DNA of 64,000 nucleotides from Camillea tinctor (lineage: Eukaryota; Ascomycota; Sordariomycetes; Xylariales; Xylariaceae), in the NCBI GenBank assembly GCA_022578605.1, contig MU394112.1, positions 1 through 64,000 on the forward strand, given 5' to 3'. The notes under the pieces were generated by a model. That model searched no databases, was not told where the DNA came from, and worked only from the letters and a program-made list of their open reading frames with translations. Shown piece after piece: positions 5,170 through 64,000 of the stretch (position 1 is the first letter of the stretch; the number at the start of each line of letters is the position of its first letter). Position numbers and translations under genes: made by a program.

Positions 5170-8100
5170 ATGTCCCTTCGAAACGAGAATTCTCGCTCGC
5201 CTAGGCGTACAAACGCAGAGAATAGGGGGCCTGGAAGTCAGTTCATGAGTGACGGACCTGGTGATCAGAATGTTGCCAGTGGTAGTGGCGTGGTGTTCAC
5301 AATCGGCCAGGTCAACAGTGAGCCAATATCCCTTCTCGTGATATTGCTTCAAACTCTAACCACTATTTAGCATACAATAACAACCTCCCGGACACAGCAG
5401 CGAATGGGATATATCCTCTACTTGGCCGCTTCCAGTCTACATCGCCTGACGAATTGGGCGCTCGTTCCCAGGGATCATATCGTACGTTTTCAAATAATAT
5501 ATTTAAAATTTAACTCAATAGCATTGTATTGATTATTTCAAGGAGATAGTATAAACACATGGCTGGCACGTCAACTTGGAAAGCCTCCCCTTACTTTCCG
5601 TCAACATCACGATGAGATCCTCCGCCAAGTAGTTCAGGGTACGGGCAAATGGATTCTTAGCAAAAAGGAGTTCCTTGATTGGAAAGATCCTACGAGCACT
5701 TCACGGTTTTTATGGATGCAGGGAGTTAGTAAGTTATAGTCGAACTGTGATCATAAGCTTTTCTATGTTTCTATTGTATCTAACAATGTCTCTATAGCCG
5801 GATCTGGTAAAACTGTTCTCGTGTTAGTAGCTAAGAGTCGGTACCATTCTAGGTTTTGAAACTGATATCCTTTTCCATAGCTCTCTTATTATCGACTGGC
5901 TTGAGAAAGAAACAAAAAGCACGAAAGATGTTGCTTGTGTATATTTCTACTTGCAAGAAGGAGAAGAGAATTCTACATCGCTCGCACACATATGGGCGGC
6001 TCTGTTAAAACAGCTATTACTAGGATCAAGCGATCTAGAAGGCGAACTAAAAGAAACTTTTTACGACTCCCTCCAAGGCTCAGCAGCGATCCCTCTATCC
6101 GAGTATATTGACCTCTTTAAAAAATTAGCTGTTACAATGAAGACAGTTTACCTAGTCATCGACGGCTTAGACAGTTACCAGACTGACCCTGAAGAAGAGG
6201 CACATCAAAGCATTGAGAACGCTCTAAAGGAGCTCCCGGATAGTGTACGAGTACTTTTCACGTCTCGAAATGACTCAATCGGCATGGGAACCGGAGAAAC
6301 TACGAAAATACTCATCACACCACAAAAAGAAGATGTGGAAACTTACGTGAAGAAACGAATCGAAGACAACGGGACACTGAGCAAATTATTAGAAGTGGAC
6401 GAGTATCGAAGTCAAGTAATACATGAAATTACCAACACGACACTGCTAAGTAATATGTTAGTTTGATGCATTAAACCTTGAAACCCTACGCAGGAGTGCT
6501 GACAACGTCTAGGTTCCTGTTAGCTAGACTTCATATGGACAACCTAAGCAAACAAGGGACACAAAATGGCATAAAGATAGCATTGCGTGAGCTTCCAGAT
6601 AGCGCTGTCAAAATATTCGACATATTGGCCTCAAAAATAACCCATAACAACCGTTTTGACCGTAGTCTGGCGAAGCATGTCCTTACTTGGGTAATACATG
6701 CAAAAGAAGAACTGAATGCGGATCAGATTTGCGAGAGCTTTGCTGTCAAAAAGAGTGCTGGAAATGCATACCAAGAACATCGACCCCTGAAAGATGCTCT
6801 AGTATCTACTTGCCATGGCTTGATCATCATGGATCCAACTAACGAGATACTCAGCCTTGTTCATAAATCGGCGTTGAAATCAATACAAAACTACAAGATT
6901 ACCACAAAGAATCCTAACCTCGACATGGCCAAGACGTGTCTAACCTATCTTCTCATTGAAGAATACGATCAAGAGGGGGAACCTCCATTGCTCCGATATG
7001 CAGCAATGAATTGGTGGGCTCACGTTAGCCGCGAGGGACAAGAAATAGACTGTGAGGTCGAGTCGTTAATATTAAAGTTTCTCAAGGACAGCACCAAACT
7101 GGCTAGATCATTCAAGGCCATTTATGGGATGAACGACGGCGTCTTCGACGGCATGACAGGTTTGCATGCAGCGGTACACTTCAACCTGTCACCCTGGGTA
7201 ACGCGGCTCCTCAGAGGGGATGTTGATATAGATGCTCAGTGCTTAGACGGTCAAACAGTTTTGCATTGGGCAGTCAGGTACGGACGAAACGATATTCTAG
7301 AATTACTCATCCGTAATAAGGCAAACCCAGATCTCTGTGACCGGGCTGGGGATACACCACTCCACAAGGCTCTTATGGGGCCAACGACTGACGATACACC
7401 ACTCCATCAATCCATGAAAAGGTCAGCAGGCAGCGATGAGGATATGGTGAAAGCACTTATTAGGGGCAACGCACGACTAGATGTTCAGAATGCTAAGGGT
7501 CTCTCGCCTATGTCCTCAGCCATCCGCTATGGGCCCACGTCAATAGCCAAGATTATGGCTGAGAGACAAAGTGATGTTAATGCTGAGATCTTCGAAGGTT
7601 GTACCTCACTGCGTCAGGTATTTTGCCACGGATTTACGATAATGAAAGACAGCAAGAAGCGAGGTTTTCAACCCAATACAGATGATTGGGTTCAACTAGA
7701 AAATGCAGTCAGGAACCACGTCCGTCTCTTGACCGACGTATTGCTCAAGCGTGGCGTAGACCTTAACCGTCCCTCAGTCGACGATGGATGGACGCCACTA
7801 GTGTACGCAGCACAACATGGCGATATGTCCAAATTACGCCGACTGCTAATGCGAAAGCCCAACCCTGCTGATGTCCATCTGCCAGATCTGGGGGGTAGAT
7901 CCTCTTTATGGTGGGCCATACAAGAAAAGCACATCGCTGCAATCCAACTGCTGGCTGAGCATGGTGCTAATATTAACGAATCATATGATGATGGATCAAC
8001 GCCGCTTCTCATAGCTGTTAGACGGCTAGATAGCGAAACAGCGAGACTACTTATCAAGTTAGGGGCTGATGTAAATATGAGAACGGCGAGTGGGTCAACG

Positions 8101-9132
8101 CTTCTAATCGAAGCGACTAAACTTCGCGACTACGACATGGTTTGGATACTATTAAACGCAAAGGCAATGCCAGACGAGCGTGACACTAATGGGCGTTCAG
8201 CCCTCTTCTATGCTACGAAGGATAAAGAGAAAGCTCTGGTTTGGCTGCTGGTCACCAAAGACGATGCGACTGCGAGTTCCAATAGGGCCACCAGAGCCGA
8301 CAATATACAGAAGTCCCTTGAACTGGCCATGACCTACGATAACCTCTCGATGGCATGGCTCTTCTATGAGCATGGGGCTTCGCTAAGCGCCTTTAATGAC
8401 AAGGGCACAACCTTATTACACCAGGTAGCTAATTATGGGGATCTTAAGGCTGCCCGGTTCCTCATTGAAAATGGCGTGCCAGTCGATACTAAGGACGCGG
8501 CCGGCTCAACACCACTACATTATGCAGTTCTTCGTCGGAAGGACCAACTGGCGGGCTTCTTAGCATCGCAAACCCCACGGTCGTCGGAGGGATCGCAACT
8601 AGATATCACTGACGCCAAGGGTAACACGGCTCTTATATTGGCTACTAACCTGAAGCTGCCGGCCATCATGCAGATACTGCTCAGGTACGGCGCTTCGTGC
8701 AATGTCCGTGGTCCAGACGGTATGACGGCCCTGCACCACGCTGCTCGCCAAGGATTCGACGAGGGACTCGAGTTACTGCTAAACAAGGCATATTCCGGCG
8801 ACCCTAACGCCGCAGATGACGAATATTTCACTCCGCTCCACCACGCAGTAGACGGCGGAATGGCCGATCGCAGGACAGTGAAGATCCTGGTCGATGCGGG
8901 CGCTAGCATGGAAAAATGGGAGAAGAACGGGCGAACGCCGTTGATGCTCGCAGCCCAACGGGGTGATGAAAGACTAGTGTATAGCCTCCTGGCTGAGGGG
9001 GATGATGCTCAGGCAATGAACGACAGAGGGTTGACAGCTTTCGCCTATGCGAGTGAATCCCCCGAAGTCCAGCAGCTTCTTGACGAGTGGTCACTGATGA
9101 GTGAATGGGCTCCTGGTAGAGACTACTACTAA
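5170..9132 (+). CDS. NLR-type STAND protein: amyloid-like N-terminal motif, NACHT domain, ankyrin repeats
   Basis: Six exons: 5170-5317, 5371-5481, 5543-5728, 5798-5822, 5881-6456, 6513-9132, for 1221 residues. Two donors are the weaker GTTAGT form (5823 and 6457); these choices restore the family phrases GKTVLVSLIIDWL and NMFLLARLHM. Residues 20-46 carry GPGSQFMSDGPGDQNV and a Gly/Ser continuation, a Gly-x-Gly-x-Gln pattern like fungal amyloid signalling motifs. The NACHT domain has Walker A GVTGSGKT (147-154), Walker B VYLVIDGLD (246-254) and a sensor-like VLFTSRND. A winged-helix-like region follows. From about residue 560 to the C-terminus there are a dozen or more ankyrin repeats (TPLHxA, GADVN-type phrases); they are diverged rather than near-identical. 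STAND NLRs oligomerise after ligand sensing, and the N-terminal motif would template effectors. The two motif-bearing genes downstream fit as partners. The ORF looks intact. Confidence 0.88.
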
Positions 9133-9622
9133 TACAGAGTACTTAGTTTTACACCTGCCAATATCAGACATTATAGGCAACTAGGGGCATTGAGTTTTCC
9201 AAAATTCTACGCTATAGTGATTGGAATTCTCTTCTCATGTACGTTAACATAGACTTGGCATATAGAAGTGGATTGGATTTGAAGGTCTAATGCGACGATC
9301 TGGTATTAGACGTATAGGGCATGAAGGCGATGCACTTAGTCTTATCACGATGTGTTAAGGACATTTTTCTAACCCAAGACACTCTATATCACTATCTTGC
9401 GTCGAGGGTAATAAAAGATCCGAATTTCTAAACACACGACTGCCATCTGACCTCCTTACTCAACTAGGTAGATAAGTGGCTGGGTAGATACAGGGATTAT
9501 ATTACAAGTGCGTACATTGGGGGCCGCCGTGGTGACAAGGGACTGGTCGGTCCTCCTTGGCCCTGGAGATAGATAATAGCAACCCGGGTTCGTAAAGTCT
9601 GAACTGAATCCTTGCCTGCCAC
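9133..9622. other. Intergenic between convergent NLR and effector 1
   Basis: A 490-bp spacer between two convergent genes, presumably holding both 3' ends. No ORF, tRNA or repeat was seen in it. Confidence 0.6.
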
Positions 9623-10255
9623 TTACTGGGGAGTCATACCAAAGTAAAAAGCCCCGGACGATTGTCCGTTGACTTGGATCCCCCCATCCATTGCTACATT
9701 CTGATTCCCTTGTCCTGAGTGAATGTATTGCGAGCTAGAATAATGCGGCGCTATTGCTGGGCTGCTGCAACCTTTTGGTTTCTCTCCTGTCTTTATCCAG
9801 TCGATGAGACTCTCGACCTGCGCTTGCGTGGCCGCCTTGACGGCACGATTGCTTGTCAACACCTGAAGATCGCAGATAATGCCGTCCATCAGATTCTCAA
9901 CCTTGTCGGCACTAGGGATTGTCTTGAGAGCCTTGAGATAACGTTCCATGCGCTTGGCACGTGTTGATGGTATGACAGCTTGTAGCACCTTTTGGAGGGA
10001 GGCCGCCTTGTCACGACAGCTCTCCAACACTTTGGTTAGCGCCATACGTGACTCAACCGAAGGAATGTCATCTGCCTCGGCCAAGCCAGTGCATGCTGCC
10101 TTGAGCGTGTCCTGAACAAGGGGAAGGCGTGTAGCAACGTCGCGAAATGACTGTGGCAGGCCGCTGGCGTCGTCAACGGCGTCATACAGCCTGAGCGAGG
10201 CTTCGATGATAGCAACAATGCCTGAGATCAGGCCAATTACTTCAGAGCCCGACAT
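9623..10255 (-). CDS. SesA-like effector 1 with C-terminal amyloid-like motif
   Basis: A single-exon gene of 210 residues starting at the ATG at 10255. Residues 1-160 are helical and match the pattern of the SesA-type N-terminal domain found on fungal NACHT proteins: MSGSEVIGLISGIVAIIEAS, then LYDAVDDASGLPQSFRDV, then a Cys-containing helix (ESCRDKAASLQKVL) and the basic MERYLKAL segment. After a Pro/Ser linker, residues 173-206 hold SSSQYIHSGQGNQNVAMDGG and a Gly/Ser/aromatic tail ending AFYFG. The spacing of Gln, Gly and Asn matches the NLR N-terminal motif. In known fungal signalosomes (HET-S/NWD2; sesA/sesB of Nectria) such a C-terminal motif receives an amyloid template from the NLR and activates the N-terminal domain. 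The role here is inferred from motif and proximity. It is divergent from effector 2. Confidence 0.82.
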   Translation of the reverse strand: MSGSEVIGLISGIVAIIEASLRLYDAVDDASGLPQSFRDVATRLPLVQDTLKAACTGLAEADDIPSVESRMALTKVLESCRDKAASLQKVLQAVIPSTRAKRMERYLKALKTIPSADKVENLMDGIICDLQVLTSNRAVKAATQAQVESLIDWIKTGEKPKGCSSPAIAPHYSSSQYIHSGQGNQNVAMDGGIQVNGQSSGAFYFGMTPQ

Positions 10256-10971
10256 ATCATGAATTTCATTTGATATAACCTAGCCACGTGAGAACTTGTC
10301 TTGACGGTAATCTGGTTTTCGGTGAAAAGAGGCAGCCTGACTAAATATCTTTAGCAGCAGAGGTGAGAGATGATACTTTGACAAGTCACTGATATCTTCG
10401 CTTTCACACGAGGCGAGAGGCAGTCCTGGCTGCTCTAGTGTGGTGCACTAAACTTGGTTGCATCGGCCTTGATGGTTGGGCTACGATTGGGCGAACATAC
10501 GAAAGGATCCTGCAGGCTGTGGTGGACTCGATCGATAGGTTATGTCGTATTTCACATCTCTTTGCGGCTGATCATACAAGGATAATACTATTATTATACA
10601 CTATTTTATAAGCAAGGTCCTATTGCAAGCACCCATGGTGAACGACTAACAAAGTAGGACAAGTGGTGTCCCTACATAACTCGCCGGTCGAGGTGACTTC
10701 GAGGCTTTCCTTTTTATTGGTTGTAATAATCATGTAAGAGGTATCGTAGGTGAGCCGACCCCAGGTGTGGAATGACATTGGATATACGCATATTAAGTAA
10801 ACTGCCTTTTGATTCTTTATCTTCCTAGCAGTCTCAAGCCTTAATAACGTCCGCATTTTCTTCCCTATAACCACATAAGTTCACTAAAAAACTCGGAAAC
10901 CACATCATACTTTTATATATTTCAGTGTCCTATCAGCTGAGATCTCTTAAGTATTTTCTGTTACCGTCAAG
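10256..10971. promoter_or_regulatory. Shared upstream region of the two divergent effector genes
   Basis: The two SesA-like genes start back to back, 716 bp apart, so this spacer must contain both promoters and could coordinate them. No specific operator was identified. The ORF at 10620-10874 (minus) has no start or family support and is treated as chance. Confidence 0.5.
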
Positions 10972-11634
10972 ATGTTAAGTGAAATCACCCAAGACAATGT
11001 TCTCATGGCACTTGACGATGCTATCTACGCCTTCCGGAGAACCGTCAAATCGTCTGAGCCTATTAAGGACATCACAGACCTTCCTAATGCCTTCCTTGTG
11101 GTCCACAAGCAACTTCCAATTATCTTCCAGGTGCTTGAGTCGATGCAAAAGAATTTGTCAAACGACCAGCCGACGGAAGAGTTGAAAGAGAGCTACGCAG
11201 CCGTGAGCCAACTTGCCGAAATATGTCGAAAGCAGGCATTGTACATGCAGAGCATCTTTAATTCTGTCACGAGCTCGAATGACAATGTTTCAAAGCTTGA
11301 AAGATACCGCACTGTCGTGTTAAAGAGCGAGGACCACGTCAAGATAGAGGCGGTAGTTCAGAACCTTATTGAGGAGGCCATCAAGGTAGCAGTGGCGCCA
11401 TTAGTCGAAGACGACCTCATCGAGCAGTTAAAGGATTGTGAGGCCGAGATCTCGGAGGTGGAAGCATCTCTGGATTTAGAAGAAAAATCTAAAGGGGAGA
11501 TGGTAATGACCAATTACGGCTCGGGATACCAGTTTCTACACAAAGGAAAAGGTCACCAGAATCATTGTTCAGGAGGGTGGCAGTTTACAGGCGACAACGC
11601 CACCAACAACTTCCCCCCAATGCCAGCGAGGTGA
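10972..11634 (+). CDS. SesA-like effector 2 with C-terminal amyloid-like motif
   Basis: A single exon of 220 residues starting MLSEITQDNVLMALDDAIYA. It aligns by eye to effector 1 over the helical domain: xIYAFRRTVK with LYDAVDD, LPNAFLVVHKQLPIIFQVLE with LPQSFRDVATRLPLVQDTLK, EICRKQALYMQSIF with ESCRDKAASLQKVL, and KLERYRTV with RMERYLKA. It is therefore a diverged paralogue. After an acidic helix (CEAEISEVEASLDLEEKSKG), residues about 184-208 read GSGYQFLHKGKGHQNHCSGG then WQFTG, the same Gly-x-Gly-x-Gln-aromatic then Gly-x-Gly-x-Gln-Asn pattern as the NLR and effector 1. It is probably a second partner of the same NLR, or of an NLR elsewhere. Identity to the SesA family is weaker than for effector 1. 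Confidence 0.75.
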   Translation: MLSEITQDNVLMALDDAIYAFRRTVKSSEPIKDITDLPNAFLVVHKQLPIIFQVLESMQKNLSNDQPTEELKESYAAVSQLAEICRKQALYMQSIFNSVTSSNDNVSKLERYRTVVLKSEDHVKIEAVVQNLIEEAIKVAVAPLVEDDLIEQLKDCEAEISEVEASLDLEEKSKGEMVMTNYGSGYQFLHKGKGHQNHCSGGWQFTGDNATNNFPPMPAR

Positions 11635-12211: not shown

Positions 12212-12891
12212 TTATGAATATGCTACTGTACATGGTGTGATAGGGGTAAGCAATCCTTGCTTGGTGATCTATATCCAGCAGTCACGTCTCTGTTTCTACA
12301 AAGGCTTCGGTGGAAGTATCTAATACACATGAGTATACACTTCAAATATATCGAGTGAGAATACATATTACTTACTGGATAGAGCTGGTATAGGTCAATC
12401 AAGATCGTGCCATCGGCGCCCCTGACCAAGCGTATCCTCCCCGCCGTCTCAACCTCCATCCTAACGCCCTCCTTGGTCTCCATCGTAGCCCTCCCGTAGA
12501 GCATGACCTCGTCTGGCTTTCCGGGCGCAAACGCAAAGATCTTCTCAATGTCGTGCCGACGGGAAGCTAGGTCTTTTGCATTCATAATCGCGGCTTGGAG
12601 TATAGCTGGACGGGGCACAATTCTTGTTAGCCTTCTTCTTGTGCTATACTTAGCTTTATGATTTATCCTATGAAATGTCTATTTCTGATAACTCATGCAA
12701 GAAAAACGGTCATTACCTTCACGACCGACAACCCCCGCCGCTCCCCGCTTCAGCGATCCGTTTTCCGCGAAGCAGTTCGCCCACTCGGCTGTTTTCGAGA
12801 GGTCATCTGCGAGGGAGTAGAACCTTTGGATGAATTCTACGAGAGGCCGGTCAATCGCAGCGGCGTCGTATTCGAACGGGTGAGCAGCCAT
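12212..12891 (-). CDS. SnoaL/NTF2-like fold protein (small, function unknown)
   Basis: Three exons: 12891-12717, 12605-12376 and 12268-12212, giving 153 residues from the ATG at 12891. The first two splices are well supported: joining them restores VVGREAILQAAIMNAKDLAS with no stop, and the donors are GTAATG and GTAAGT. The last short exon (ITKQGLLTPITPC and following) is less certain. The layout, an N-terminal helix with PLVEFIQRFYSLADD and WANCFAENGSL, a GREAI-type helix and then an ATMETKEGVRMEVETAGRI/ILIDLYQLYP strand pair, fits the SnoaL/NTF2-like fold common in fungal polyketide and stress-related proteins. The fold does not give the reaction. No cluster partner lies next to it. Confidence 0.68.
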
Positions 12892-60586: not shown

Positions 60587-63222
60587 TTATGCGACGTATT
60601 TGAGCTTGAACACCCAGCAAAACTCCTCCTCATCTAACAAATCCTCGTCAACCTCGATCCCTAGAACTGCATCCCATCCTTCCCCTTCCACGGTCCATTT
60701 CAAATTTTCTCCCCCCTCCACCGCTAACAAACTCACCTCATCTCCTTCCAGGATCGGTACCGGCGCCAGCACCCTCACCACCCCGTCCTCGCCGACCGTT
60801 GGCCTCTCCAAAAACAGCACATAGAACGCCTCGTCCGTATGCGTGAACCTTACATCATCCGGCCCACCCCCCTGCACACCCGCCTGGCTCATCACAAACC
60901 AATACCTCGTCCCAAAAATCGCCTCCCCATGCGCACGTATCCAACCCCCCGCCTCCCGCAGCGCATCCACTTCGGCCTGGACCAACGACCCATCGGCGCG
61001 GGGCCCAATATCCAGCAGCAGGTTGCCGTTCTTGGCCACAATATCCACCAGCGTGCGCACCACCTCCGAAGCGTTCATGTACGCCGCATCGGGCGTCGCC
61101 CCGTTGTACCCGTAGCTGTACGGGTCCATCCCCCGGTTGCTCTCCCACTTGCGCGCCTGCGCCGACGAGAACGTCGCGTACTCCGGCGTGTCGAAGTCGG
61201 CCGTCTGCGCGAGCCCGCACCGCGAGTTCATCGCCACCTGCCGCCCCTCTTGGCGCGTGTCGCGCCACCACTGCGCCGCGAACGCTGCGGACACGTTGGC
61301 CGCCCCGATGTCGCACCACATGATGTCGATGCTGTAGGGCGACGAGGCCAGGATCCGCATCTGCGGGAGCATCACGTCGGCGAGGAAGTCGTCCACGGGG
61401 ACGTGCCCTGTGTACGGCTCCGGCAGCCCGGTGTACGGGTTCGGCGCGAGAACCCCCGGCCACGAGTTGGTCCCCGGTACCGAGGACGCGGGGAATTGGT
61501 CGAACCCGTAGGGCCCGAAGGACGGGTTGAACCACTCCGGCAGCGAGAAGTAGGTCCCCCGCCGCAGGTCCGGGTGGTGCGTCGCCGCGGCGTCGAGGAG
61601 CTCGCGGAGGAGGTCGCGCTGCGGGCCGTAGTGCAGCGCTGTGCGGTTGGTGGTCCCGCCCGCGTCGAAGAGCGCGAACCCGTCGTGGTGCTTGGATGTG
61701 AGCACGAAGTACTTGGCTCCTGCGTCGGCGAACAGGTCGACCCAGGCTTTGGGGTCAAATGCGGAGGCTGTGAAGTCCGGGAATGTGTCGTCGTAAGCCC
61801 AGTCGGGGCCGTAGGTGCGGAGGCGGTAGTCGTAGAAGTCGGAGGGGTCGGCTTGGGGGTGGTGTGTTGAGTACCACCTTTTAGTAAGGAAAGGGGGGGA
61901 TGTGTTAGAAGCTATTATTTACATGTGAAAAAAAAGGGGGGGAGAGAAGTGACATACCAGAACCACTCGGCGTAGCTCTCATGCGGCGAGGAGTTCCCCC
62001 ACCCCGTTACTGAGTACGGACCCCAGTGGATGAAGATGCCGAACTTGGCGTCGTTGAACCAGTCCGGCGACTCGTGGCGCGCGAGGTTATCTAGATCCTC
62101 TGTCCACTCTGCCAGGCCAATCTCGACGTCCGCAAACTCCGCCGTTATCTGCTGTTGCGTTGCGCCGCCATCGACGATCACAGTGACGTTTGCTAGCCCG
62201 CTCGTGGCCCCCTCCACGCCCAGAGTCACGATCTTCTGGTCTCCTGGACACAACCGCTTCACGGTCCCTAGTGTCGTGGTGTTGAAACCTTCACCCTCGA
62301 GCGACACCGTCAGCCCCGAGCCGGCCACACACCGCGTCCCCGCGTTATTCACCGTAATCTCCACGACCTGCGTCCCATCCTCGAGCCACTTCTGCGTCGG
62401 CCGCACAGCCTGCACAGCGACCCCATTGTCACTGCCACTCCAAAGGGTAATAGCAAATACGTGCATGCGCCCTGCCGCCGCATCCGTCGTGTCGGGCAGC
62501 GTGATGGATTTCAGCACCTTGCCCGGCTCCAGCGCAGCCGTGCGCTCGAAGATGTGGCTCGTGTTCCAGTTGACGCCGTCGGGCGTGAAGCGGTTGGGGA
62601 ACACGAGCTCGCCCCGGTTCAGCGTCAGGAAGCTGAACCAATCGAGCGTGCGCAGCTCGTGTGTCGACGTGCTGCCGTCTGCATACGCGAATGTGGCGTT
62701 GGCGGTCACGGTCGCGAGCTCGACGTCGCCGGAGATGAGGAAGGAAGCTGAGAAGTACGGGTATGAAGTGCCATTGCTGCTATCATTCCCGAGATTGAGG
62801 TCAGGAACGGTAACGGTCTGCCCGCTGCATATCACGTTGTCTGTTGCGTTCGGCCCCGTGTACCCCGGGAACGAATACTGGATGCCCGTCGTGCCGGATG
62901 TGTAGAACGGAGTCGGGAGATCCGGCGCCGGGTAGGATTGGCCCAGGGCGTCGAAGGAGGCTTCCCCCGGGTAAGTGCCAAAGGCCTTGTTGTTGTAGAA
63001 TGGTGAGAGGTCAAGCGGTGCAGACTTTATATTAAGTTGGTCAATATCCGGCGGCACATATATTCGTCGGGTCGAAGGGGGGGTTGGTACCTGAGCTGCG
63101 AGGAGAGATTGGACTGTCCCTGCGGATCTTCTTGGATATCCTTTGGCATCTGCCACAGAGATACTACTACTGCTACTACCCACCACACCTATCGCGAAGA
63201 TGAGATGACTTCGAAGAGACAT
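60587..63222 (-). CDS. Secreted GH29 alpha-L-fucosidase
   Basis: Two exons, 63222-61958 and 61877-60587 (80-nt intron), 851 residues; the splice restores YAEWFWWYSTHHPQADPSDF. A signal peptide is evident (MSLRSHLIFAIGVVGSSSSS, cleavage near residue 26). An N-terminal beta-rich region of about 350 residues precedes the catalytic domain, which starts at DWFNDAKFGIFIHWGPYSVT and continues with AWVDLFADAGAKYFVLTSKH (then HDGFALF), DIMWCDIGAANVS with the likely nucleophile Asp611, and LVDIVAKNGNLLLDIGPRAD. A C-terminal beta domain closes it. GH29 enzymes are retaining exo-fucosidases that remove alpha-L-fucose from glycans outside the cell. Many N-glycosylation sequons (NxS/T) fit secretion. A family variant with another sugar preference cannot be ruled out. 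Confidence 0.92.
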
Positions 63223-64000
63223 TATAGGTACACAAGATATTCAACATTTAATCAATTGCCTCATTTTGTGCTTAGAGCAGTATAAACTGTGACCATCGGA
63301 TACCATATTCAAGGTAAACATCTACCTAGGTTCCCTACCCCATGTTAGCAGCTTCCCCTCATGGCTCGCTCGCTCGTCCATCCTAATCCGGATGGGCTAT
63401 CTGCATACTCTGCCATCATCGCCAAACGATCGGCATTGACCGCACATCGCCAGCGTAGCATTTTCAGTCGAACACGCGAGATAGTTCAAGCCTCAAGGTT
63501 CATGGGGCCTACATCCTGTTTAGAAACCGACTCGACTTGCTTCGGGGGTGGAGATAGTCCGATAGCAAGTCGATTATAAGAGGGAACGTTACATTGAGCA
63601 TCTATTTTCCCGCTAGCTTAGCTATATGTATCCCTGGAAATGTAGATATGCATACACACGACTAGAGATACAATACGAGTATTCTTGAAACCCCGCTATT
63701 CTCTAACATCAGTGTATATCAGAGTGCGTTCCGAAGTGAGATTTGCGGACCTCTTTGTGATATGTTTTGCTAAGTTTTGGTGTTTATCTTCCGCTGTCAG
63801 CTACGTATCTAATATATCTTCACTTTTCAAATTAAGAGTGATTAAGCCTAGGTTAGTTTGTGAGAATTATTACATTAACTGTGAGTAGGCTTCAATCATA
63901 CTATCCTCAACGCGGGCAGTAAATGCGTATATTGTAACAAGAGACTTATTCCTGGAAGCAGATATGATTCCAACGTTGTGTGAATTTAAGTTTTGAATAG
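63223..64000. other. Intergenic to window end
   Basis: About 780 bp upstream of the fucosidase gene. The frames at 63361-63579 and 63685-63888 lack support. A near copy of the palindrome (TACCTAGGTT) is at about 63322. Confidence 0.5.

Follow-up and report, generated by a model that had tools for sequence, protein, structure and literature searches.

A putative divergent sigma-type NLR/SesA cluster in Camillea tinctor, with a second SesA protein that keeps the shared motif without an apolar first helix

We identified a putative amyloid-signalling gene cluster of a divergent sigma type in a 64,000-nt stretch (hereafter, the window) at the start of contig MU394112.1, in the 44.7 Mb assembly of Camillea tinctor (Xylariales); on the sequence evidence given below, we assign this reading a probability of roughly 0.7. 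The cluster contains one gene encoding a NOD-like receptor (NLR) and two genes encoding SesA-domain proteins, SesA-1 and SesA-2, and all three proteins carry related short segments, located at the N-terminus of the NLR and at the C-terminus of each SesA protein (Table 1). Sigma clusters are recognized by a STAND (signal transduction ATPase with numerous domains)/NLR gene adjoining sesA and/or sesB and by a homologous extension at the NLR N-terminus and the effector C-terminus, and both features are present here. An earlier note on this DNA had proposed a sigma-like NLR/SesA cluster, and this proposal is supported by motif homology in both profile directions, by the SesA domains, and by the location of the motif at matching protein ends in relatives. 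Clusters of this kind have already been published; judged from sequence, the uncommon part is that SesA-2 keeps the motif without an apolar helix.

Table 1. Positions of the cluster genes and their features in the window.
Feature	Positions	Strand	Description
NLR gene	5170..9132	+	N-terminal motif, NACHT-type nucleoside triphosphatase (NTPase; NPHP3_N), ankyrin repeats; 1220 aa, 6 exons
NLR exons	5170-5317, 5371-5481, 5546-5728, 5798-5822, 5881-6456, 6513-9132	+	Spliced model
NLR motif	5227..5298	+	Residues 20-43; clear repeats GPGSQF / GPGDQN, third degenerate GSGVVF
SesA-1	9623..10255	-	210 aa, single exon; SesA domain residues 10-133
SesA-1 motif	9671..9739	-	Residues 173-195; SSSQY / GQGNQN / GGIQV
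SesA-1 first helix	10178..10249	-	Residues 3-26, apolar; 19-residue hydropathy maximum 1.80; helix from modest-confidence model
Divergent intergenic region between effector genes	10256..10971	.	716 bases, from gene coordinates; possible shared promoter region of SesA-1 and SesA-2
SesA-2	10972..11634	+	220 aa, single exon; SesA domain residues 18-134
SesA-2 first helix	10990..11055	+	Residues 7-28, amphipathic, charged; helix from model
SesA-2 motif	11518..11586	+	Residues 183-205; GSGYQF / GKGHQN / GGWQF

The three segments in which the earlier note had seen a motif were recovered at the residues given in Table 1. The full pattern that it had proposed as common to all three proteins (xGxQ[FY]xxxGxGxQNxxxGG) is matched exactly only by SesA-2, while the core Q[FY]xxxGxGxQN is present once in each of the three; these are the only three occurrences in the six frames of the whole window, and none was found in 100 triplet shuffles of it. 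The NLR departs from the full pattern at its end (GSG instead of GG), and SesA-1 departs from it by SSSQY and by having four rather than three residues before GG. In the alignment, SesA-1 shows a 2-residue gap and is the one protein of the 26 motif-bearing SesA proteins without a glycine two positions ahead of the first Q; the SesA-1 motif may be decaying while the SesA-2 motif is complete.

Two motif profiles were built. The first was derived from the C-termini of SesA proteins (23 rows of the 27-row alignment, leaving out both Camillea proteins, the SesA-2 homolog P0002, and the short record P0025), and the second from the N-termini of 17 of the 34 non-Camillea NLR matches, in which the segment had been recognized by eye. 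With the SesA profile, the NLR N-terminus scored 31.0 bits, SesA-1 58.9, SesA-2 28.9, and P0002 25.1; with the NLR profile, the scores were 65.9, 24.3, 19.5, and 12.4 bits, respectively. In none of the eight tests, each with 5,000 same-composition shuffles per segment and profile, was the observed score reached by any shuffle (top shuffle overall, 15.3 bits); because of this, the motif common to the three proteins is judged to represent homology or strong convergence, not composition. It is highly improbable that these Gly/Gln/Asn-rich segments are low-complexity linkers that play no part in signalling: they are indeed short, biased in composition, and under the Pfam cut-off discussed below, but the shuffles fall short of them on either profile and the motif is found at matching protein ends in relatives.

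The spliced six-exon NLR translation is identical, letter for letter, to the deposited C. tinctor protein P0028 (1220 aa), and a Pfam scan identified an NPHP3_N domain (E = 3.2e-16) and many ankyrin repeats (Ank_2, E = 1.7e-81). Exon 2 of this gene (111 bases), which lies directly behind the motif, could be skipped in frame, giving possible splice forms with different linker length; it is kept in P0028. The NLR gene and SesA-1 are located tail to tail with 490 bases between them, while SesA-1 and SesA-2 are divergent. Consistent with the description of two SesA-like effectors in the earlier note, both proteins passed the Pfam PF17107 SesA cut-off of 26.3 bits (SesA-1, 114.5 bits, E = 4.2e-33; SesA-2, 69.0 bits, E = 5.2e-19). 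They were also the only SesA matches in the assembly at E up to 0.001 in a genome profile search, a count that is a lower bound (three candidates were scored, the search was blind to introns, and one of 14 control genomes gave a signal below the cut-off).

SesA-1 has 24 homologs besides itself (E up to 0.001; 47-69% identity), 10 of which are from Annulohypoxylon, Hypoxylon, Biscogniauxia, or Monosporascus and five from other genera; Hypoxylon and Monosporascus belong to the Xylariales according to a taxonomy look-up, and Annulohypoxylon and Biscogniauxia presumably do so as well. A relaxed form of the motif, written as a regular expression after the sequences had been inspected, was found at the C-terminus of 26 of the 27 SesA proteins (Camillea's own counted), the sole exception being a 147-aa record that ends early, and at the N-terminus of 21 of the 35 NLR matches. 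For eight of the 24 SesA-1 homologs, the contig is as long as that of an NLR match (P0004/P0045, P0007/P0031, P0008/P0032, P0009/P0036, P0012/P0030, P0016/P0035, P0017/P0029, and P0018/P0038), and from these lengths we infer that the two members of each pair share a contig; the Monosporascus NLR/SesA-1 pair has consecutive locus tags (DL769_001968 and 001969).

In the published description of the sigma motif, submotifs A (GxGxQFNxx) and B (GGTQNINT) are repeated three times (PMC3321046). The Camillea NLR and SesA-2 contain two clear repeats each, and the first repeat of SesA-1 is without its glycines; the second repeat, GxGxQN, is intermediate between submotifs A and B, and GGxQ is found in the third repeat of SesA-1 and SesA-2. 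With an E-value limit of 0.1, the Pfam model PF17106 (NACHT_sigma) matched 12 of the 27 SesA proteins (best E = 2.4e-5), and it is annotated by the database on the SesA homolog P0010; the matches in these 12 proteins tie the SesA family found here to sigma, despite the scores of the Camillea segments, which remain under the curated cut-off.

Several results weigh against the reading as a sigma-type amyloid-signalling cluster, and they start with these scores: with a NACHT_sigma cut-off of 27.6 bits, the NLR segment reached 15.3 bits and the SesA-2 segment 10.5 bits, and the SesA-1 segment was not among the Pfam matches (E up to 1); the Camillea segments are therefore not filed in PF17106. In addition, the NLR has a degenerate third repeat, the score of P0002 on the NLR motif profile is barely over that of its best shuffle (11.0 bits), and 14 of the 35 NLR matches have no motif, namely the 12 lowest-ranked ones (P0051-P0062), P0047, and P0045, an NLR model that begins at the NTPase. 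A reported tendency is that extensions resemble each other more closely inside a cluster than across orthologs (PMC3321046). A co-variation test with eight NLR/SesA-1 pairs (Camillea plus seven; the A. truncatum pair was dropped, its NLR model P0045 being without an N-terminus) gave a mean motif similarity of 10.0 of 24 within clusters, as compared to 10.3 of 24 overall, and 36,770 of 40,320 permutations were at least as high as the observed within-cluster mean; the power of this test is low because all pairs are near orthologs. Since within-cluster similarity is not above the overall level, these eight pairs provide no indication that the motifs co-evolve cluster by cluster. The structure models also add to this side, as confidence in the SesA-1 model is modest (mean pLDDT, i.e., predicted local distance difference test score, of 63.5) and the fold comparison does not distinguish MLKL from other helical bundles.

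The SesA-2 model has a mean pLDDT of 80.6, and its motif region shows short strands at pLDDT near 50, too low to lean on. Foldseek returned zero matches at E up to 0.001 for the SesA-1 and SesA-2 models, and no HeLo-domain entry was present among the matches listed at lower stringency (50 for either model). A sequence search for solved relatives of SesA yielded 23 matches up to E = 1, of which the best (E = 0.0017) was a spike protein; these were taken as spurious because the rest were coiled-coil-like or had unrelated names. At the level of the genome, a six-frame search with NACHT_sigma found zero candidates and missed the known NLR motif itself, and a search with the NLR exon-1 peptide found only its own match; both searches therefore say little on distant copies.

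SesA-2 is strongly diverged from SesA-1, with 26% identity over 196 columns (BLASTP) and 20% in the whole alignment. Besides itself, it has one homolog, P0002 from Hypoxylon sp. NC0597 (47% identity over 100% of the length), in a search that requires shared 5-residue words and may thus miss further homologs. All 24 SesA-1-type proteins with an N-terminus (fragment P0027 was dropped) present an apolar first helix, with a best 19-residue mean hydropathy of 1.51-2.15, as compared to maxima of 0.43 for SesA-2 and 0.44 for P0002; the first helix of the two SesA-2-type proteins is also more amphipathic than that of the six SesA-1-type proteins (out of the 24) with which it was compared. An overlooked upstream SesA-2 exon encoding an apolar helix is unlikely, because the start of P0002 coincides with that of SesA-2 and its first helix is of the same type. 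No description of a SesA protein without an apolar helix was found in the main-text passages that the literature search covered.

While NLR and SesA-1 homologs are located on equally long contigs in eight relatives, the sole SesA-2 homolog is located on a 66,682-base contig, a length equal to that of no NLR match's contig; on the NLR motif profile, moreover, SesA-2 scores below SesA-1, and P0002 lower still. These observations would be expected if only SesA-1 were wired to the NLR and SesA-2 were a chance neighbour, or the partner of another receptor, with a motif from shared SesA ancestry. We consider this unlikely, given that SesA-2 starts 716 bases from SesA-1 in divergent orientation, that the genome search yielded no SesA gene beyond these two (a lower bound), and that the SesA-2 motif is closer to the Camillea NLR motif (11 of 24 letters; range 8-11 over eight NLRs, with a tie at 11 for the A. 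nitens NLR) than is the SesA-1 motif (9 of 24; 9-10 over eight NLRs). The SesA-2 motif shares 8 of 24 letters with that of SesA-1 (8-12 over eight SesA proteins).

A cluster with both effectors resembles the sigma cluster het-eN/sesA/sesB of Nectria haematococca (PMC3321046, PMC5485727), in which adjacent genes encode one receptor and two effectors, including a NACHT-ankyrin NLR with an N-terminal motif and a SesA with a C-terminal motif. Unlike that cluster, the Camillea cluster has a strongly diverged second SesA where Nectria has the lipase sesB, and its second repeat is GxGxQN rather than GGTQN, with scores under the NACHT_sigma cut-off; a Pfam scan of 13 frames or pieces of the window found no lipase. 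A pair of adjacent sesA copies beside one STAND/NLR gene has been mentioned briefly for sigma loci (PMC3321046), and two effectors appear to be under the control of the PP and of the sigma NLRs (PMC5485727); the claim of the earlier note that two effectors beside one receptor are unusual is therefore not supported. The evidence for sigma as a prion-like element has been called indirect (PMC7889193), and a fibril result for the het-eN peptide has been cited as unpublished (PMC3321046).

A mechanism for the Camillea cluster may be outlined from these family relationships. The ankyrin NLR would bind a ligand and oligomerize via its NACHT domain, as members of its family suggest; the N-terminal motifs would then stack into a beta-fold and template the C-terminal motifs of SesA-1 and SesA-2. 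SesA-1, with its apolar first helix, is likely the membrane-acting executioner by analogy with HET-S, while SesA-2 would enter the same aggregate through its motif and, without an apolar helix, may modulate rather than represent a second executioner copy. The HET-S/HET-s pair of Podospora anserina (PMC3531502) is likewise a prion-motif effector pair whose first helices differ in transmembrane character; with one exception, toxicity accompanies a first helix of predicted transmembrane character, and the less apolar partner is non-toxic. By analogy with this relation, SesA-2, which is without the apolar helix, would be a non-executing partner, and a HET-s-like modulator is plausible. Unlike the Camillea effectors, which are two paralogs of about 20-26% identity in one genome, HET-S and HET-s are variants that are nearly identical to each other, contain a HeLo domain, and carry a motif of a different type.

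It is possible, if rather unlikely, that the cluster has two executioners, with SesA-2 also killing by another membrane mode, through an amphipathic helix as in MLKL or plant coiled-coil domains, and the receptor thus having a dual output. MLKL and plant coiled-coil domains act on membranes without an apolar first helix. Because these domains need no such helix, and because the relationship of SesA to HeLo is remote (PMC4518210), the HET-S analogy for SesA-2 is weak. A further reading, which we put forward speculatively and regard as quite unlikely, is that SesA-2 represents a class of intrinsic brakes or relays in amyloid immune signalling, which keep the templating motif with another first helix and would cap, titrate, or reroute the NLR-seeded fibre; we would give as little weight to its corollary, that a HET-s-like partner has been fixed as a second gene beside the killer. 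Fungal NLRs of the type that activates cell-death proteins through prion-like templating provide a comparison system for necroptosis, and an effector pair with one receptor motif and different membrane helices would provide a one-locus system for asking whether non-killing subunits limit fibres.

Elsewhere in the genome, a 102-aa open frame (L003:1483-1791, minus strand; G000:C7:663700-663756) ends in a Ses_B-type motif, with a score of 23.9 bits as compared to a Pfam cut-off of 23.2 bits, and 25.7 bits in the genome search; judged by this motif, the frame perhaps encodes a second, separate amyloid-signalling effector. In the window, a small minus-strand open frame (12223-12678) that has no Pfam match at E up to 0.001 adjoins the cluster. 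Further along the window, at 60587-63240, two adjoining minus-strand frames match alpha-L-fucosidase (E = 1.4e-64 and 8.4e-13) and are perhaps one gene split by an intron.

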